Shown piece by piece: positions 9,133 through 18,813 of a DNA stretch of 64,000 bases. The notes below the pieces were generated by a model. The model was not told where the DNA came from. It was given only the letters and a program-made list of their open reading frames with translations, and did no database searches. The stretch comes from Leifsonia sp. EB41 (GTDB lineage Bacteria > Actinomycetota > Actinomycetes > Actinomycetales > Microbacteriaceae). How positions within the stretch are numbered: the first letter of the stretch is position 1; every line of letters begins with the position of its first letter. Made by a program: the position numbers and the translations under genes. The DNA lies in NCBI RefSeq assembly GCF_041262565.1, contig NZ_JBGCCJ010000001.1, forward strand, positions 1,054,001 to 1,118,000. Reading direction: 5' to 3'.

Positions 9133-10242
9133 ATGTCCCTGTCCCCACGCGCCGTCATCTACTGCGAAGGCCTGTTCGGCGAGCCCGACGGCAAGACCGC
9201 GAACGGTCTGGTGCGCTCGTCGGAGAGCTACGAGATCGTCGCCGTCATCGACAGCACCCGGGCCGGCCAGGACGCCGGCGCGCTGCTCGACGGGGTCGCC
9301 AACGCCGTCCCCGTGCTCGCGGATCTGGCCGAGGTGGTCGGCCACCTCCCCGCGGCGCCGGACGTGCTGATCGTCGGGATGGCTCCGGCCAGCGGCATGC
9401 TCTCCCCCGCCGACCGGCTCGTCCTGCTCGACGGCATCGCCCGCGGCCTCCACCTCGTCAACGGCCTGCACGAGTTCCTCGGCGATGACCCGGAGTTCGC
9501 CGCCGCCGCGCTGATCGCCGGTGTCACCATCACGGATGTGCGCCGCCCGAAGCCCACGAAGGACCTCCGGCTCTTCTCCGGCAGGATCACCGAGGTCACC
9601 TGCCCGCGGATCGCGGTGCTCGGCACCGACGGCGCGATCGGCAAGCGCACCACGACCACCCTCCTGGTGCAGGCGCTCAACGCGCGCGGGATCCGAGCCG
9701 TGATGGTCGGCACGGGCCAGACGGCGCTGATCCAGGGCGCCCGCTATGGCGTGGCGCTGGATGCGACCGTGCCGCAGTTCTGCTCGGGGGAGGTCGAGGG
9801 CCAGGTGCTCGACGCGTTCGAGAACGAGAGCCCGGACGTCATCGTGGTCGAAGGGCAGGGCGCGTTGAGCCATCCCGCCTACCTGACCTCGGCCTACATC
9901 CTGCGCGGCAGCCGACCGGAGGCCGTCATCGTGCAGCACGCCCCCGCGCGTGCGGTCCTGGACGACTACCCCGCGATCGCGATGCCGACGGTCGCGAGCG
10001 AGATCGCCCTGATCGAGGCGTTCGCCGAGACCAGGGTCATCGGCGTGACGGTCAACCACGAGCACCTGTCCGATAGCCAGCTCGGCGAGGCGATCGATGA
10101 GCTCGAACTGGAGCTCGGCATCCCGGCCACCGATCCGCTGACCAGGAGCCTGGACGAACTCGTCGGGATGGTGCTGCTCGCGTTCCCCGCTCTGGCGGCC
10201 ATCGCGGTTCCGCTCGCCGCCCCGCTCGCGGCCGCGAGCTGA
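9133..10242 (+). CDS. DUF1611 / DgcN-like protein
   Basis: A 369-residue member of the DUF1611 family. A Rossmann-like N-terminal domain (about residues 1-140) precedes a P-loop domain with a Walker-A-like GTDGAIGKRT (about 164-173) and DVIVVEGQGALSHPAY. DgcN proteins of this family have been described as N-acetyltransferases working with the epimerase DgcA in D-glutamate breakdown, but no epimerase gene is adjacent here. The C-terminal 20 residues are an Ala/Leu/Pro run (LAAIAVPLAAPLAAAS) that looks like an extension. The ATG at 9133 is fixed by AGAGGAG five bases upstream, which lies inside a hairpin. It converges on the ammonia-lyase homologue. Confidence 0.8.
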   Translation: MSLSPRAVIYCEGLFGEPDGKTANGLVRSSESYEIVAVIDSTRAGQDAGALLDGVANAVPVLADLAEVVGHLPAAPDVLIVGMAPASGMLSPADRLVLLDGIARGLHLVNGLHEFLGDDPEFAAAALIAGVTITDVRRPKPTKDLRLFSGRITEVTCPRIAVLGTDGAIGKRTTTTLLVQALNARGIRAVMVGTGQTALIQGARYGVALDATVPQFCSGEVEGQVLDAFENESPDVIVVEGQGALSHPAYLTSAYILRGSRPEAVIVQHAPARAVLDDYPAIAMPTVASEIALIEAFAETRVIGVTVNHEHLSDSQLGEAIDELELELGIPATDPLTRSLDELVGMVLLAFPALAAIAVPLAAPLAAAS

Positions 10243-10249
10243 CCCGGGC

Positions 10250-11746
10250 TCAGGCGCGTTCGGCGCTGCTCGCGAGGCCGAGCAGACCCTCCGTCGCGCG
10301 CACGAGGTCGTCGGCTGCGCGTCCGTCCAGGCTCGCGGCCAGCGCCGCCGCGAGCCGGCCCGTCCCGGCGCCGGACGGAGCGGCGTCGAGGACGCCGAGC
10401 AGGTCGGCGGCGTGCAGCGCCTCGATCGCGACGACCTCCGCGGTCCGCGCGAGCGAGCGCCGCAGGAGCCGCAGGGCCAGGGGCGCGTAGGTCGCGTGAT
10501 CCTCCACGCCCGACAGCGTGGAGCTGCCGAGCGTCGCCGGGGCCGCGAGCTGGCGCACCTCGGCGACCGCGTCGGCGGCCGCATAGAGGAGGAGGCCGGG
10601 GATGCGGGTGCGGCCCTCCCGGCGAGCGGGGGCGAGCGCCGACGAGAGGGCGGCCGTGCGACGCTCCGAGGCCTCGGCCGCGTGGGCCAGCGCCAAGCGC
10701 AGGTTCTCCAGCGCGAGCGACAGCGGGAGCGCCTGGAAGTTTCCGCCGGAGATCAGGCGGCCGCTCGGGAGGTCGACCACCGGGTTCTCCGAGCGCGCGG
10801 CGAGCTCCGCCTCCAGCTCTGCGCGGAGCCGGGCGATCGACTCACGGAGGGCGCCGTGGAGCTGCGGCGCGGTCCGGAAGGAGAGCGGGTCCTGGACGCT
10901 GACCGTGCGATCCGTCGCCTCCACAGCGCTGCCGGCCAGAGCCACACGGATCGCGTGGGCGGACGCGCGCTGACCCTCGCCTCCGCGCGCGTCGGCCACG
11001 GCCTCGGCGTACGGGCTGAGGTTGCCCGCGGGTCCGTGGGCGGCGACAGCCTCCAGCGACAGGGCGACGACCAGGTCGGCCGCCTCGGCGAGCTGCCGGG
11101 CGGCGACGGCGGCGAGCGAGCCGACGCCCACGCTCAGCGCGTTGGCGCTCAGGGCGGCCAGCGCTTCGTGCGGCGCGAGCTCGATGGGCTGGAGGCCGGC
11201 GTCGGCGAGGGCGGCCTCGGCCGGCACTGCTTCCCCGTCGCGCAGCACAGTGCCGGTGCCGATGACCACGGCGGCGACCTCCGCCAATGCGGTCAGGTCC
11301 GCCGCCCCCACCGAGCCGCGCGAGGGGATGCGCGGCGTCACGCCCGCGTTGAGCAGTGCCGCGTACGCATCGGCGAGCTCGGGCCGAACGCCCGCTCCCC
11401 CGCGCGTGAAGCCGGCGAGCCGCGCGGCGACCACCGCGCGCGCCTCCGTCTCGGTGAGCGGCTCGCCGACGCCGCCGCGGTGGTTCGCGATGGTGCGGCG
11501 CTGGAAGGCGGCGAACTCGTCGGCCTCCACCGCGTCGTCGCGGCCGGCGCCGAGCCGGCGGTTCAGTCCGTAGACCGGCTCGCCCGACTCGATCGCACGG
11601 TCGACCACGGCACGGGAGGCCGCGAGCGTCGCCCGCGCGTCGGCGTCGAGTTCGACCGGTGCGCCCTCGGCGACCGCCACGATGTCGGAGACGGTCGGAG
11701 GCTGCGCGCCGAGCCGGACGGTCCGCATCTCAACAGCGCTGGCCAT
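10250..11746 (-). CDS. Aromatic amino-acid/histidine ammonia-lyase homologue lacking the MIO tripeptide
   Basis: A 498-residue member of the HAL/PAL superfamily. Conserved active-site segments are VYGLNRRLGAG (VYGxN), the dyad region QDPLSFRTAPQLHG, SENPVVDLPSGR, GGNFQA and GVEDHATYAPLA. The segment that normally reads GSVGASGDLAPL, whose Ala-Ser-Gly cyclises to the MIO electrophile, reads GSVGAADLTAL here (residues 144-154). The protein is one residue shorter at this point and lacks Ser and Gly. MIO-dependent deamination is therefore unlikely. The gene starts one base after the stop of the LLM monooxygenase and is the last of a three-gene unit with a cysteine-synthase-like enzyme. It may be a lyase of different chemistry or a non-catalytic homologue. 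Confidence 0.85.
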   Translation of the reverse strand: MASAVEMRTVRLGAQPPTVSDIVAVAEGAPVELDADARATLAASRAVVDRAIESGEPVYGLNRRLGAGRDDAVEADEFAAFQRRTIANHRGGVGEPLTETEARAVVAARLAGFTRGGAGVRPELADAYAALLNAGVTPRIPSRGSVGAADLTALAEVAAVVIGTGTVLRDGEAVPAEAALADAGLQPIELAPHEALAALSANALSVGVGSLAAVAARQLAEAADLVVALSLEAVAAHGPAGNLSPYAEAVADARGGEGQRASAHAIRVALAGSAVEATDRTVSVQDPLSFRTAPQLHGALRESIARLRAELEAELAARSENPVVDLPSGRLISGGNFQALPLSLALENLRLALAHAAEASERRTAALSSALAPARREGRTRIPGLLLYAAADAVAEVRQLAAPATLGSSTLSGVEDHATYAPLALRLLRRSLARTAEVVAIEALHAADLLGVLDAAPSGAGTGRLAAALAASLDGRAADDLVRATEGLLGLASSAERA

Positions 11747-11747
11747 C

Positions 11748-13049
11748 TCAGAAATCGGCCAGGTTCTGCCGCAGGCCCGCGTCGCCGAGCTCGGTGCGCA
11801 GCAGGCCGCGCCGCCGCAGGGCGGGCACCAGCGGGTCGAGCGTGCGGTGCACGTTGGCCGGGTGTACCTGGCCGGTGAAGAGGAACCCGTCTCCGCCGAC
11901 GGCCTCCCCCAGCTCGCCCAGGTGGTCGGCCACCTCGTCGGCCGTGCCGATGATCGCCAGGCCGTCCTTCTTCGCACGGGTCTGCAGGATCTCGCGGAGG
12001 GTGGAGCCCGCCGGAGCCGACGAGACGAAGTTGTCGAGGGTGCCGCGGTTGCTGTTGGTGGTGACGTCCGGCAGCGGGGCGTCGAGGTCGAAGGTCTTGA
12101 AGTCGACGCCGGTCAGGTAGCTGATCGACTGGAGCTGCTCGTCGATCGCGGCCTGCGTCAGCTCGGCGCGCGCGGCGCGGACGCTGGCGGTCTCCTCGGC
12201 GTTCGCAGTCAGGATCGGCTGCACGACGAACAGCACCTTCACCGCGTCGGCCGGGCGGCCGTGCTGCTCGGCGACCTCCCGGATGCTGTCGCGGTACTCC
12301 CGCATCCGCTCGGCGGTGGAGGCCAGCGCCAGCACCACGTCCGAGTTCTTGCCGGCGAAGTCGCGGCCGCGGCCGGACGCTCCCGCCTGCACCATGACCG
12401 GGTCCTCCGCCGCGGGTGCGGTGTTGAGCGGCCCGCGGACGCGGAAGAAGCGGCCCTCGTGGTCGATGGTGTGGACCTTGCGGAAGTCGGCGAAGACGCC
12501 GCCCGCGACGTCCTCGACGATCGCGTCAGGCTCCCAGCTCCGCCAGAGCTTGCGGACGACCTCCACCCACTCGTCGGCGCGGTCGTAGCGGAGGTCGTGC
12601 TCCACCTGCTTGTCGAGGCCGTAGTTCTGGGCCGCCAGGTCGGAGCCGCTGGTCACCACGTTGAAGCCGAGCCGGCCGCCCGCGAAGTGCTGGAGGGTGC
12701 TCAGCAGGCGCGCGGCGGTGAACGGCTCGTAGAAGCTCGCGCTCAGCGTGGGCACGATGCCGAGCCGGGAGGTCGCCCCGAGCAGGTACGGCACGAGCGG
12801 CAGCGGGTCGTGCTTCGGGACGAAGCGCGCGGCAGCGAGGTTCACTTCGGCGGAGCCGCCGTAGGTGTCGGGCACGGCCACGCCGTCCTCGATGATGAAG
12901 AGGTCGAAGCCGGCGCCCTCGAAGGCGCGCGCGGCATCCTGGTAGACCGGCGGCTGCTTCCAGTCGTAACCGACGCCGTAACTCGGGTCGCCCCAGCCCT
13001 GGACGCCGAAGCCCGCGCCGAGGAACCAGCCGAAGTGGAGGAGTGCCAT
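11748..13049 (-). CDS. LLM class flavin-dependent monooxygenase (NtaA/SnaA/DszA type)
   Basis: A 433-residue FMN-dependent monooxygenase. The luciferase-like core includes LLGATSRLGIVPTLSASFY, RLGFNVVTSGSDLAAQNYG, RYDRADEWVEVVRKLWRSWE and PVMVQAGASGRGRDFAGKN, which mark the nitrilotriacetate/dibenzothiophene-sulfone subgroup. These enzymes use FMNH2 from a partner reductase to oxidise C-N or C-S bonds. No reductase gene is visible nearby. It lies 44 bp after the cysteine-synthase-like gene and 1 bp before the lyase homologue. In Bacillus, an LLM enzyme, a GNAT and an amino-acid ABC importer together degrade S-succinocysteine, and a similar set surrounds this gene. The substrate is inferred only by that analogy. 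Confidence 0.92.
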   Translation of the reverse strand: MALLHFGWFLGAGFGVQGWGDPSYGVGYDWKQPPVYQDAARAFEGAGFDLFIIEDGVAVPDTYGGSAEVNLAAARFVPKHDPLPLVPYLLGATSRLGIVPTLSASFYEPFTAARLLSTLQHFAGGRLGFNVVTSGSDLAAQNYGLDKQVEHDLRYDRADEWVEVVRKLWRSWEPDAIVEDVAGGVFADFRKVHTIDHEGRFFRVRGPLNTAPAAEDPVMVQAGASGRGRDFAGKNSDVVLALASTAERMREYRDSIREVAEQHGRPADAVKVLFVVQPILTANAEETASVRAARAELTQAAIDEQLQSISYLTGVDFKTFDLDAPLPDVTTNSNRGTLDNFVSSAPAGSTLREILQTRAKKDGLAIIGTADEVADHLGELGEAVGGDGFLFTGQVHPANVHRTLDPLVPALRRRGLLRTELGDAGLRQNLADF

Positions 13050-13093
13050 GCGTTCCTTGCTGTGAGTAGTGCTGTCTGGTGGTCAGTGCTGTG

Positions 13094-14116
13094 TCAGTCG
13101 ACGCCGACGCCCGCGGCGCTCAGCCAGTCCGCGTCGTACGCCTTGGTCAGGTAGTTGGTGCCGCCGTCCGGGGCGATGGCCACGATGACCGACCCGGGCC
13201 GCGCCTCCCGCGCCACCCGCAGGGCCGCCGCGACGGCGAGCGCCGACGACGGTCCGAGCAGCAGCGCCTCCTCGGCGGCGAGCCGGCGGAGCGTGCGGTA
13301 GACCACCCCATCCTCGACCGTGTGCACTTCGTCCACCACCCCCGGGTCGAAGGTCTGCGGCCAGAACTCGCGCGGCCACGCGGTTCCGACGCCGTCGACC
13401 AGGATGCGGCCGGCCGCTCCCCCGTCGTAGGTCGAGCCCGCCGGGTTGGCGCCGTGCACCTCGACGGCGCCGCCGCTGACCTCCTTGAGGTAGCGGCCGG
13501 TGCCGCTCACGGTGCCGCCGGTGCCGATGGCGGCCACGAAGTGCGTGACCCGGCCCGCGGTCTGCCGCCAGATCTCCGGCCCGGTGCCGCGGTAGTGCGC
13601 CTCGGGGTTGGCGGTGTTCGCGAACTGGGCCGGACGCCAGGCGCCGGGGGTCTCGGCGGCGATCCGGTCGGCGACCGCGCGTGGGTTGGCCGGGTCGTCG
13701 GGGCCGGCCTCCCAGTCGGCCTCCAGCAGGCGGGCGCCGTAGGCCGCGAGGACCTTACGCTTCTCGTCCGAGATGTCGGAAGCGTGGACGATGACGACGG
13801 GATGGCCGGTGAGCCGGCCGATCAGTGCCAGGCCGATCCCGGTGTTGCCGCTGGTCGCCTCCACGATCGTGCCGCCCGGGGCGAGCACGCCGGCCGCCTC
13901 CGCGGTGCGGATCATGTTGAGCGCGATGCGGTCCTTGGAGGAGCCGCCGGGGTTGCGGCCCTCCAGCTTGACCAGGACCCGCACGTCGAGCCCGGACGGC
14001 AGCGCGTGCAGCTCGACGATCGGGGTGTTGCCGATGAGCGCTGCCGCCGAGTCGCACACCTCGCCCAGCGGGAGGTTCCCGGGGGCGGAGGAGGGGATCA
14101 GATCGAGCGCGGTCAT
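13094..14116 (-). CDS. PLP-dependent cysteine synthase family protein
   Basis: A 340-residue fold-type II PLP enzyme related to O-acetylserine sulfhydrylase and cystathionine beta-synthase. The PLP lysine is in GRNPGGSSKDRIALNM, the substrate loop is EATSGNTGIGLAL, and the phosphate cup is AIGTGGTVSGTGRYL. The end IAPDGGTNYLTKAYDADW matches the CBS-like subgroup. The first strand motif IGNTPIVEL is present. It would form or use cysteine or a related thio-amino acid by beta-replacement. As first gene of the unit with the LLM monooxygenase and lyase homologue, it supports a sulfur amino-acid theme. The ATG at 14116 is the only sensible start. Confidence 0.92.
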   Translation of the reverse strand: MTALDLIPSSAPGNLPLGEVCDSAAALIGNTPIVELHALPSGLDVRVLVKLEGRNPGGSSKDRIALNMIRTAEAAGVLAPGGTIVEATSGNTGIGLALIGRLTGHPVVIVHASDISDEKRKVLAAYGARLLEADWEAGPDDPANPRAVADRIAAETPGAWRPAQFANTANPEAHYRGTGPEIWRQTAGRVTHFVAAIGTGGTVSGTGRYLKEVSGGAVEVHGANPAGSTYDGGAAGRILVDGVGTAWPREFWPQTFDPGVVDEVHTVEDGVVYRTLRRLAAEEALLLGPSSALAVAAALRVAREARPGSVIVAIAPDGGTNYLTKAYDADWLSAAGVGVD

Positions 14117-15047: not shown

Positions 15048-16037
15048 TCAGTGACCGCTCGACGCCTTCGCGTTCGACTCGTACGAGGTGTTGGTCGACT
15101 CGAAGAAGTTGACCAGCTCGAGCGTGTCGTTGGCGGTCGCCATCCACTTCGCCGGGTTGGAGACCTTGTACTCGGCCTCGAAGCCGAGCTCCTCCAGGCG
15201 GCGGTCGGCCAGGTAGCGGACGTACTGGTTGATGTAGTTGGCGTTCAGACCCAGGATGCCGCCGGGCAGGAGGTCGCGGTTGTACTGCTCCTCCATCTCC
15301 ACGGCGTCCAGGATCATCTGGCGGATCTCGTTCGCGAACTCCGGCGTCTGCAGGTCGGGGTTCTCCTCCAGCACCGTCAGGATGAGGTTGATGCCGAACT
15401 TGAGGTGCAGCGACTCGTCGCGCACCACCCAGTCGATCAGCGAGCCGAAGTTGCGCAGCAGGTTGCGCTGGCGGAACGACAGCGCCACCATGAAGCCCGA
15501 GTAGAACCAGATGCCCTCGAGGATCACGTTGTAGGCCACGAGGTTGCGGATGAAGTCCTGCTTGCCCTCGGTGGTCGTGATGTCGAGCGTCTGCTCGGTC
15601 ATCCGCTTGATGAAGCCGACCTCGAACTCCTCCTTTCGCGCCATCGACGGGATGTCGACGTGCGAGTTGTAGGCCTGCTCGCGGTCGATCGGGAACGTCT
15701 CCAGGACGTACTCGAACGACATGCAGTGGTTGGCCTCCTCCCACATCTGCTTCGCGAGGTAGAGGTGCGCCTCGGCCGCGTTGATGTAGGGGTAGACGCC
15801 GAAGGCCAGCGCCTTGTTCACCAGGAGCTCGTTCGGGTTGAAGTAGCTCATCAGGAAGGTGACCGCGTGACGCTCTTCGTCGGTCATCCGCTTGAAGTCC
15901 GCGATGTCCTCACCGAGCTGGATCTCGTTGGGGAACCAGGTGTTCGCGACGGCCTGGTCGTAGAGGTCCATCGCCCACTTGTACTTCACCGGCTTGAGGA
16001 GGAGGCCCTCCTCGATTCCCGTTCCCAGGATGCCCAT
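15048..16037 (-). CDS. nrdB: Ribonucleotide reductase R2 subunit, class Ic signature
   Basis: A 329-residue ferritin-like radical-generating subunit. Metal ligands can be read as Glu70, Glu101, His104, Glu174, Glu208 and His211. The residue four after His104, where standard class Ia/Ib enzymes have the radical tyrosine, is Phe108 (HCMSF). The first ligand is Glu rather than Asp. Both features, and every ligand spacing (31, 3, 73, 34, 3), match my recollection of the Chlamydia trachomatis class Ic enzyme, which uses a Mn/Fe cofactor in place of a tyrosyl radical. C-terminal Tyr319 (NTSYESNAKASSGH) may be part of the electron path to NrdA. The gene lies 33 bp after the tail ORF with a good AGAGAAGAG ribosome site. 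Confidence 0.95.
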   Translation of the reverse strand: MGILGTGIEEGLLLKPVKYKWAMDLYDQAVANTWFPNEIQLGEDIADFKRMTDEERHAVTFLMSYFNPNELLVNKALAFGVYPYINAAEAHLYLAKQMWEEANHCMSFEYVLETFPIDREQAYNSHVDIPSMARKEEFEVGFIKRMTEQTLDITTTEGKQDFIRNLVAYNVILEGIWFYSGFMVALSFRQRNLLRNFGSLIDWVVRDESLHLKFGINLILTVLEENPDLQTPEFANEIRQMILDAVEMEEQYNRDLLPGGILGLNANYINQYVRYLADRRLEELGFEAEYKVSNPAKWMATANDTLELVNFFESTNTSYESNAKASSGH

Positions 16038-16070: not shown

Positions 16071-16148
16071 TTACTGGCAGGACTCGCACTGCAGGTCGTC
16101 CATCGGGTCGACCGGCACGTAGTACTCCTCGATCTTGGTGCTGTTCAT
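16071..16148 (-). CDS. 25-residue ORF encoding the redox-active NrdA C-terminal tail
   Basis: A 26-codon ORF between nrdA and nrdB. Its ATG (16148-16146) overlaps the nrdA stop codon as TAATG, and it ends DPMDDLQCESCQ before TAA. A Cys pair at the extreme C-terminus is the part of class I NrdA proteins that re-reduces the active-site disulfide (Cys754/Cys759 in E. coli). The 828-residue NrdA encoded just upstream has no cysteine after residue 456, so this peptide appears to be its missing tail. No slippery heptamer is present at the junction, and the -1 frame has a TGA (16158-16156) a few bases upstream. Termination-reinitiation is more likely than frameshifting. A one-base assembly error is the alternative. 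Confidence 0.7.
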   Translation of the reverse strand: MNSTKIEEYYVPVDPMDDLQCESCQ

Positions 16149-18634
16149 TACTTCTCACCGCCAGCCGGGGTGTTCGAGGTCAGGCCACCGAAGCCGAAGC
16201 CGCGGCGGGCGGGGGCGGCCGCCGGAGCGGTCTCGGTGACGGCGGGGGCGGCCGGAGCGCCGGCACCCACCGTGGCGAAGCCGGTGCGGGCGCCCGAGAT
16301 CTCCTCGGCCTTGTTGACCTTGACGGTCGACTGCTCGGCCTGGTGACGCGGCTTCATGTGCAGGTAGTAGGTCGTCTTGACGCCCTTCTCCCACGCGGCG
16401 TAGTAGATGTCCATCATGTCGCCGAGGTCGCGCGTCTCCAGGTACATGTTGCGGCTGATCGCCTGGTCGATCCACTTCTGGGCGCGGGCGGCCACCTCGA
16501 TGAAGGCGTACGGCGAGAGCTGGAAGCTGGTCTTGAACGTGGCCTTGACCTCGTCCGGGATCGCCGCGATGCCCTGGATGTCGCCCTGCGAGCGCAGGAT
16601 CGCCTCGCGGACGTCCTGCCAGATGCCGCGCTCCTGCAGCGTCTCGACCAGGTTGCGGTTGACCTCCAGGAACTTGCCCGACGAGGTCGACCGGCTGAAG
16701 ATCTGCGAGAACTGCGGGTCGAAGCCCGGCGTGGTGCCGGCGACGAGGCCGATGGAGGCCGTCGGCGCGATGGCCATCAGGGTCGCGTTGCGCATGCCGC
16801 CCTTGACCTTCTCGCGCAGGCGGTCCCAGTCGAGGCGGATGGTGCGGTCGACCGTGATCGGGAGGCCCCGGTCGGCCTCCGTCAGCGCGATCGAGTCGAA
16901 GGGCACCAGGCCCTGCGACCAGCGCGAGCCCTCGAAGTTCGGGTACGCGCCGCGCTCCTGGGCCAGGTCGGCGCTCTCGTCGATCGCCGCGTACGAGACG
17001 TGCTCCATGATCTCGTCGATCAGGGCGTACGCCTCCTCGCTCTCGTAGCTGAAGCCGAGGCGCTCGACGATGTCGGTGAAGCCCATCACACCGAGGCCGA
17101 TCGCGCGGTTCTGCTGGTTGGAGAAGTCCGCCTCGTCCACGCTCGACACCGTGATGTCGATCAGGTTGTCGAGCTGGCGGACGGCCTGGCGGGCGCTCGC
17201 CTCGATGCGCTCCCAGTCCATCTTGCCGTCGACGAGGTGGCGCGACAGGTTGATGGAGGCCAGGTTGCAGACCGACACGTTGTCGCGGTCCTGCGGCAGC
17301 GTGATCTCGGTGCAGAGGTTGGAGAGGTGGATCGTGCCCGTGTTGTTGTTCAGGGCGCGGTTGTTGATGGTGTCCTTCCAGGTCAGCCACGGGTGGCTGG
17401 TGGTCTGCAGGCTCATCAGGATGTCCTTGAACTGCGAGCGCGCGCTGATCTTCTTGAACATGCGCAGTTCGCCGGACTCGGCCATGGCGACGTACTCGGC
17501 GTAGCGCTCGGAGAACGCCTTGCCGTACAGCTCGTTGAGGTCGGCGACCTCCAGCGGGTCGAAGAGGTACCAGTCCTCGTCGTTCTGGACGCGCTTCATG
17601 AACTCGTCGCTGATCCACACCGCGGTGTTGGCGGTGCGGGTGCGGCGGTACGGGTCGCCGGAGTTCTGGCGGAGGTCGAGGAACTCCGGGAAGTCCATGT
17701 GCCAGTTCTCCATGTAGAAGCACAGGGCGCCGAACTTCTTGCCGCCGCGGCTCACCGCGCGCAGCACCGAGTCGATCGTGTGCATGAACGGGATCGGGCC
17801 CGTGGAGGTGGTGTTGTTGGAGCGGATGGGCGAGCCCTGCGCGCGCAGCTTGGTGACCGCGAGGCCGATGCCGCCGGTGCCCTTGGTGAGCCACATGACG
17901 TCGCGCACCGACTTGGCGATGTGCTCGATGTCGTCCTGCATCTCCATGACGAAGCAGTTGGAGAGCTGCGGGTACGCGGTGCCCGCGTTGACGAGCGTGG
18001 AGCCCGCGGCCAAGTACTCCAGGTTGGACATCTTGTCGTAGAACGCGAGGGCGTGCGCGGTCGGGTCGGCCTCGTTGAGGGAGAGACCCATCGCGATGCG
18101 CATCCAGAAGTACTGCGGCACCTCGAGGGAGTCGCCGTTGCGCGCCTTGATGCCGTAGCGGTTGTTGAGGGTGACGACGCCGATGTACTTGAGCAGCTCG
18201 TCGCGCGACGGGTCGAGGAAGCCCGCGAGGCGGTCGAGGTCGAAGAGGGTCGTGAAACGCGAGTCGAGGAGGGTCTCGGCGACGCCCCGCTCGATGTAGC
18301 CGCGGAAGTGGGAGGTGTGCAGCTCGGTGAGCTCGTCGAGGGTCTCGTAGTCGCCGAGGACGCGCTTGTAGATCGTCTTGAGGAGGAGGCGCGCGGCGAC
18401 GGTGTCGAACGCCGGGTCGTCCTTGACGTTCTGGAGGGCGACCTGGATGACTGCCTCGTCGAGCTGCTGGGTGGTGATCCCGTCGAAGAGGGTCAGCTCC
18501 AGCTCGCTCGCGATCTGGGTCACCCAGGTGATGTTCTCGTCCAGACCGGCGGCGGCGTGCTCGATGGCCAGGTTGATCTTGTTGGCGTCGTACGGCTCGC
18601 GCTCGCCGTTCCGCTTCACAACAGTGATAGCCAC
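16148..18634 (-). CDS. nrdA: Ribonucleoside-diphosphate reductase subunit alpha (R1)
   Basis: An 828-residue catalytic subunit. An N-terminal ATP-cone (about residues 1-95, VKRNGEREPYDANKI) gives allosteric activity control. The active site is complete: Cys227 (SNCF), Asn439/Cys441/Glu443 (SNLCTEI), Cys456, and the radical-path tyrosines 756-757 (KTTYYLHMK). The protein then runs into an Ala/Pro/Gly-rich linker ending NTPAGGEK with no cysteine. The usual redox tail is in a separate overlapping ORF at 16071-16148. The GTG start is preceded by GGGAGAG. It is the first gene of the nrdA-tail-nrdB-sulfurtransferase unit, and its promoter region carries tandem NrdR boxes. It reduces ribonucleotides to deoxyribonucleotides. 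Confidence 0.96.
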   Translation of the reverse strand: MAITVVKRNGEREPYDANKINLAIEHAAAGLDENITWVTQIASELELTLFDGITTQQLDEAVIQVALQNVKDDPAFDTVAARLLLKTIYKRVLGDYETLDELTELHTSHFRGYIERGVAETLLDSRFTTLFDLDRLAGFLDPSRDELLKYIGVVTLNNRYGIKARNGDSLEVPQYFWMRIAMGLSLNEADPTAHALAFYDKMSNLEYLAAGSTLVNAGTAYPQLSNCFVMEMQDDIEHIAKSVRDVMWLTKGTGGIGLAVTKLRAQGSPIRSNNTTSTGPIPFMHTIDSVLRAVSRGGKKFGALCFYMENWHMDFPEFLDLRQNSGDPYRRTRTANTAVWISDEFMKRVQNDEDWYLFDPLEVADLNELYGKAFSERYAEYVAMAESGELRMFKKISARSQFKDILMSLQTTSHPWLTWKDTINNRALNNNTGTIHLSNLCTEITLPQDRDNVSVCNLASINLSRHLVDGKMDWERIEASARQAVRQLDNLIDITVSSVDEADFSNQQNRAIGLGVMGFTDIVERLGFSYESEEAYALIDEIMEHVSYAAIDESADLAQERGAYPNFEGSRWSQGLVPFDSIALTEADRGLPITVDRTIRLDWDRLREKVKGGMRNATLMAIAPTASIGLVAGTTPGFDPQFSQIFSRSTSSGKFLEVNRNLVETLQERGIWQDVREAILRSQGDIQGIAAIPDEVKATFKTSFQLSPYAFIEVAARAQKWIDQAISRNMYLETRDLGDMMDIYYAAWEKGVKTTYYLHMKPRHQAEQSTVKVNKAEEISGARTGFATVGAGAPAAPAVTETAPAAAPARRGFGFGGLTSNTPAGGEK

Positions 18635-18765: not shown

Positions 18766-18813
18766 CCACTATATAGCCGGGTGCCGACATTTCCACGCCC
18801 CCATATCTAGTGG
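18766..18813 (-). promoter_or_regulatory. Tandem NrdR boxes upstream of nrdA
   Basis: Two 16-bp sites resemble the NrdR consensus ACACTATATATAGTGT. Box 1 at 18766-18781 contains CACTATATA with a weaker right half. Box 2 at 18798-18813 contains ATATCTAGTG. Their starts are 32 bp apart, about three helical turns, as known for NrdR pairs. They sit about 130-180 bp before the nrdA start. NrdR is the (d)ATP-sensing repressor of ribonucleotide reductase genes. The region is AT-rich for this genome. Confidence 0.75.

Follow-up and report, generated by a model that had tools for sequence, protein, structure and literature searches.

The window, a stretch of 64,000 nucleotides from Leifsonia sp. EB41, encodes a ribonucleotide reductase (RNR) on its minus strand. 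Two NrdR-like boxes, identified by consensus scan, lie upstream of nrdA (box 1, CCACTAGATATGGGGG, at 18798..18813; box 2, CCCGGCTATATAGTGG, at 18766..18781, 32 bp from box 1). nrdA (16148..18634) encodes an 828-aa large subunit (R1) with an ATP cone and a catalytic barrel, and nrdB (15048..16037) encodes a 329-aa radical-generating small subunit (R2) of class Ic type. Between the two sits a stand-alone microgene (16071..16148) for a 25-aa peptide, MNSTKIEEYYVPVDPMDDLQCESCQ, which corresponds to an R1 tail and is conserved in Microbacteriaceae. The microgene is in a different frame from R1, and its ATG begins on the final base of the R1 stop (TAATG). The host genome is a complete chromosome of 4.16 Mb. 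Searches of it with PF00268 and PF02867 matched no second RNR large or small subunit, and R1 and R2 are therefore the sole RNR found in this genome.

nrdB encodes the small chain of a ribonucleotide reductase, with matches to Pfam PF00268 (E=6e-74) and NCBIfam NF007186 (411.9 bits; cut-off 237). The original prediction had placed Phe108 at the site of the radical Tyr and Glu70 at that of the first-ligand Asp, with Glu101, His104, Glu174, Glu208, and His211 spaced as in the Chlamydia enzyme. All of these residues were in place in the 329-aa minus-strand frame. In the alignment with the closest solved relative, C. trachomatis R2c (1syy, E=5e-73), the offset was a constant 19 residues across all seven signature positions (E70/E101/H104/F108/E174/E208/H211). 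F108 paired with C. trachomatis F127, the position altered in entry 2ani, and the radical position is occupied by Phe, not Tyr. The predicted radical-path residues, a buried Trp (W34) and a C-terminal Tyr (Y319), paired with the W and Y of 1syy; like the seven signature positions, they are invariant in 17 of 17 diverse Microbacteriaceae R2s. C. trachomatis NrdB (1syy, 4d8f, 4m1i) shares the ligand set and its spacing, the Phe, and the Trp and Tyr of the radical path at ~38% identity to the Leifsonia protein.

An AlphaFold model of R2 was of low confidence (pLDDT 54). A fold search with this low-confidence model returned Chlamydia R2c structures at ranks 1-13, with 1syy, 4d8f, and 4m1i at the top and the class Id proteins of Flavobacterium and Leeuwenhoekiella far lower. 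R2 is nearest in sequence, and in fold as far as a model of pLDDT 54 goes, to the Mn/Fe R2c proteins rather than to classes Ia, Ib, Id, or Ie. Because it has a Phe radical site, a Glu first ligand, and its best sequence and fold matches in the Chlamydia Mn/Fe enzyme, with class Id distant, the sequence gives good support to the class Ic assignment that had been proposed. By analogy with Chlamydia, the cofactor is most likely Mn/Fe, and we infer from this a Mn(IV)/Fe(III) center with a changed metal and stress dependence. That the Phe-containing R2 uses Mn/Mn, as class Id enzymes do, or some other cofactor is distinctly unlikely. Metal identity is unreadable from sequence, and class Id enzymes likewise have no radical Tyr (PMC8463856), but R2 goes with Chlamydia R2c in sequence and fold, far from class Id (5e-73 versus about 1e-18 to 1e-10), and its first ligand is Glu.

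The pattern E-E-H-F-E-E-H was present in every one of ~150 R2s from the Microbacteriaceae/Micrococcales clade and its nearest outgroups, and a more distant actinobacterial clade had D-E-H-Y-E-E-H. As judged from these alignments, Glu/Phe and Asp/Tyr change jointly between actinobacterial R2 clades, and a signature constant across a clade is not attributable to chance. Some actinobacterial R2s (L155-L156) carry Leu, rather than Tyr or Phe, at the radical position. The class Ic signature is clade-wide and no novelty of Leifsonia sp. EB41, whose R2 is 99% identical to that of L. shinshuensis. Since a review already gives Tropheryma whipplei as class Ic (PMC4009431), a class Ic R2 is not new in this lineage, and the R2 finding alone is of little weight.

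R1 matched NF005101 (PRK06539) with 1680 bits (cut-off 988) and has the class I features of an ATP cone, a catalytic barrel, three active-site cysteines, and a YY dyad. Class I R1s are re-reduced via two cysteines near the C-terminus, in most cases as CxxC (PMC9669993, PMC5704485). Through this tethered tail the disulfide in the active site is re-reduced, and thioredoxin or glutaredoxin in turn recharges the tail (PMC5704485). The Leifsonia R1 departs from this scheme, as it has no C-terminal CxxC and hence no redox Cys pair of the class I type on the same polypeptide. Its only cysteines are at positions 227, 305, 441, and 456, with none after 456. Likewise, none of the 96 distinct family R1s had a Cys after the motif KTTYYLH. 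The Leifsonia protein is 75% identical to an outgroup R1 whose tail is fused.

All outgroup R1s sampled, from other families and classes, carry the tail fused, and outgroup genomes had the tail pattern once, at the R1 end, or nowhere. Because the nearest outgroup R1s carry the tail in frame, ending in ...CPVDPMERLQCESCQ, the microprotein is, by its sequence, a homologue of the R1 C-terminal tail. Those nearest-outgroup R1s (L115-L131) have very long Ala/Pro-rich linkers, with open frames to ~1100 aa. They also have a third Cys just N-terminal to the PVDPM motif (CPVDPMERLQCESCQ), which some viral tails retain. Of 96 distinct Microbacteriaceae loci, 93 had a separate tail ORF, with its own ATG or GTG, in the gap from R1 to R2. 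Relative to R1, the linked tail was in frame +0 at 10 loci (after a stop), +1 at 7, and +2 at 76, and it started between -1 and +61 nt from the R1 stop. The occurrence of separate ORFs at 93/96 loci and in three frames rules out a sequencing indel as the origin of the split. Chance matches of the tail pattern were also ruled out, as a reversed control pattern gave 0 matches in the genomes. In an R1 tree of 81 sequences, built by a quick method, the split state occupied one side of a single branch with a support of 100 (SH-aLRT). The tree places a single departure of the tail from the R1 reading frame, in the ancestor of Microbacteriaceae (with Tropheryma).

Three loci (L069, L075, L079) and a Tropheryma-like genome (G015; 927,303 bp), which matches T. 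whipplei Twist in size, had no tail between R1 and R2. A whole-genome pattern search found one tail elsewhere in each of them, and this unlinked copy rules out plain tail loss at L069, L075, and L079. The same distribution bears on whether the split is only apparent, with R1 and the tail joined in a single protein through programmed frameshifting or readthrough of the stop codon. The overlap of the tail ORF with the R1 stop in the window (TAATG) and the 10 loci where the tail follows a stop in R1's own frame are compatible with such recoding, but tails occupy all three frames at gaps of up to +61 nt and begin with ATG or GTG, and no common slippery site is apparent at the R1-tail junctions. 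Three lineages and the Tropheryma-like genome, moreover, have the tail elsewhere and none downstream of R1, and a Shine-Dalgarno-like stretch precedes 65 of 70 unlinked copies. We consider recoding highly improbable overall, and its programmed-frameshift form was rejected on the strength of the three frames at 93/96 loci together with the lineages that have the tail elsewhere only.

Codon-position entropy was calculated over a 42-nt core of the tails. It was 0.92 at position 3 for linked tails (0.27 at the first position and 0.19 at the second), 0.69 for unlinked tails (0.19 and 0.09), and 1.39 for viral tails (0.39 and 0.23). Position 3 is about 3-8 times as variable as positions 1 and 2, a contrast that is inflated at fixed residues because the tail sequences were gathered by a protein-motif pattern. 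The tail persists as a separate gene with start and stop codons of its own, and these substitution patterns show it to be under purifying selection. No family for the microprotein exists in Pfam, NCBIfam, or PHROGs, where a single sub-threshold match to a Pfam zinc finger was not credible. Searches of open-access papers turned up no description of a detached RNR tail, or of the RNR of Leifsonia or Clavibacter, and the detached R1 tail of Microbacteriaceae is apparently new to the literature.

A whole-genome pattern search of the window's genome found four exact copies of the tail pattern and one with two mismatches, the linked copy included. Among the unlinked copies is a 27-aa tail gene, MDYENDTVGGYAVPVDPMDLLQCDSCQ, at 3096373-3096456 of this genome. 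This gene recurs across the family, nearly always behind twin NrdR-type AT-rich palindromes at fixed spacing (for example AACACTACATGTAGTGGAATGACA...TTATATAGTG) that resemble those of nrdA. Scanning 1.75 Mb of loci with the consensus identified 170 distinct twin boxes, 78 before a recognised R1 start and 64 before a tail; the other 28 had no assigned gene and were mostly placed where R1 begins. Their spacing of 31-33 bp fits NrdR, for which about three helical turns are known (PMC9110341), and NrdR is also present. Three tail copies in mobile-looking stretches had no NrdR boxes: L212 (G000:C1:2798022-2798060), L213 (G000:C1:3211176-3211214), whose surroundings are similar to those of L212, and L214 (G000:C1:3263824-3263862), which forms the end of a 93-aa ORF that neighbors a ParB-like gene. 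Another family genome (G041; L016, L226, L227) had six tail copies, among them pairs in opposite orientation that lie within 4-5 kb on two contigs. Across 120 family genomes, the tail pattern was present in all 55 sampled genomes with this R1 and absent from 64 of the 65 without it, the exception being a 77%-complete MAG. The genomes without this R1 mostly encode a distant class Ib-like large subunit.

Translated searches revealed stand-alone tails on plasmids of Leifsonia, Clavibacter, and Gryllotalpicola and in Pontimonas phage phiPsal1 and Clavibacter phages CMP1 and CN1A, with a weaker match in Pseudanabaena phage Pan2. No R1 or R2 homologue was found over the whole length of phiPsal1 or CMP1. 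CMP1 (GQ241246.1, 3974-4699 and 36713-36769) carries, besides its stand-alone tail and without an RNR, a thymidylate synthase gene, another function in dNTP supply. The Pan2 match (Pan2_27, L436, ON968453.1 21250-21333) is a 27-aa tail-like gene, ...MDDFDTIDGFACPNDPADLVSCESCQ. Its phage is attributed to the cyanobacterium Pseudanabaena, which calls for a closer look either at that attribution or at how widely detached tails occur across taxa. A 33-aa plasmid tail peptide (L432, NZ_CP065038.1 49231-49332, WP_223361114.1) is named 'ribonucleotide-diphosphate reductase subunit beta' in RefSeq, a misnomer that may spread.

The exact tail pattern occurred in at least 120 IMG/VR contigs. No R1 or R2 was nearby in 116 of 120 viral stretches, which cover only parts of some contigs. 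The 5' neighbor of the viral tails varies by contig (terminase large subunit, holin, peptidase/endolysin, or an exonuclease-like gene), which suggests that phages took up the tail repeatedly. One viral contig, L363, has the tail, a tail-less R1, and R2 all together, with the tail gene upstream of R1 and R2 downstream. Its R1 frame (~9906-13316) is ~1137 aa long and includes an in-frame, intein-like insertion of ~300 aa in the catalytic subunit.

Taken together, our preferred reading, to which we give a probability of about 80%, is that this class Ic-type RNR consists of three pieces: R1, R2, and a 20-40 aa CxxC microprotein that would re-reduce R1 in trans. R1 would perform catalysis, R2 would supply a tyrosine-free metal oxidant, and the microprotein would supply the CxxC pair. 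We infer the in-trans role from the homology of the peptide with fused tails. Once charged by thioredoxin or a similar redoxin, the reduced microprotein would enter the R1 active site, re-reduce the active-site disulfide after each turnover, and then leave. Several tail genes would allow dosage control, mobile copies without NrdR boxes could escape repression, and plasmid and phage tails could add reductant to the host RNR outside NrdR control.

The free peptide might instead be a regulator or competitor of RNR or thioredoxin rather than a reductant, with phage copies inhibiting or redirecting host enzymes. A peptide with the very sequence of a binding tail can act as a competitor, and phages often encode small inhibitors. 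This Leifsonia R1, however, has no tail of its own to be displaced, and the peptide is kept in 55/55 genomes with this R1, mostly (by genus) within the nrdAB operon. Its CxxC is also invariant, to be read with the fact that CxxC formed part of the search motif. A regulatory role therefore appears unlikely.

Against in-trans reduction, a free 25-aa peptide forfeits the high local concentration that a tether provides, and it would therefore need high expression or a docking site. A candidate docking element is RRGFGFGGL, a conserved motif that lies where the R1 linker ends (16181..16207, minus strand). All 96 distinct family R1s have a [KR][KR]GFG sequence close to the C-terminus. Since a GFG-rich end is also found in some fused-tail R1 linkers (for example L122 and L143), it is older than the split. 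It may help dock the tail peptide, perhaps holding it at the active site, or it may serve another role. An AlphaFold model of a fused-tail R1, aimed at docking, had a pLDDT of 49. The conserved GFG-rich ends could also be taken to mean that the peptide is ligated to R1 after translation, giving back a normal tail. This is barely conceivable, as the N-termini of the peptides are variable and a ligase or intein signature was seen at neither the R1 nor the peptide end.

Several known systems resemble this arrangement in part. In the Tropheryma-like genome, the tail gene of the class Ic RNR known from T. whipplei is likewise detached from R1, although only an unlinked copy is present there, whereas Leifsonia has linked and unlinked copies; we found no description of the detached Tropheryma tail in the open-access literature. 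In Pseudomonas aeruginosa, NrdJb performs disulfide exchange for NrdJa in trans (PMC4520616). The redox-active cysteines are thus on a second polypeptide, as in the detached Leifsonia tail, for which homology would imply the same exchange role. NrdJa/NrdJb, however, is a class II, AdoCbl-dependent enzyme, whereas the Leifsonia R1 and R2 belong to class I families. NrdJb also carries folded C-terminal domains (PMC9669993), compared with a 25-aa peptide in Leifsonia. Unlinked copies with NrdR boxes and phage copies are not reported for NrdJa/NrdJb, and both were found for the Microbacteriaceae-type tail. In genes-in-pieces phage RNRs, such as NrdA of Aeromonas phage Aeh1 (PMC3653736), R1 is in more than one piece, as in Leifsonia. 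Splits of that type are mostly ascribed to introns, inteins, and homing endonucleases, whereas in Leifsonia the redox tail is what became detached, with no mobile element at the break.

More broadly, it is probable, though held less firmly than the three-piece enzyme itself, that the R1 tail became a family-wide, diffusible 'micro-redoxin' of 20-40 aa with several genes that are mobile or under NrdR control, and that diverse phages and plasmids carry the tail alone, as a minimal auxiliary gene, and thereby drive host dNTP supply. With phiPsal1 and CMP1 encoding a tail and no RNR, the phage tail may be among the smallest auxiliary metabolic genes. Two further outcomes of the analysis are a microprotein family that Pfam, NCBIfam, and PHROGs do not contain and a 27-codon gene under NrdR-type regulation. 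Class I R1 is regarded as carrying its C-terminal CxxC tail as a built-in, tethered element, and here one clade detached it and held it detached through a family's radiation. A short synthetic peptide would thereby make it possible to study how far tethering is required, how fast the tail leaves, and how thioredoxin recharges it.
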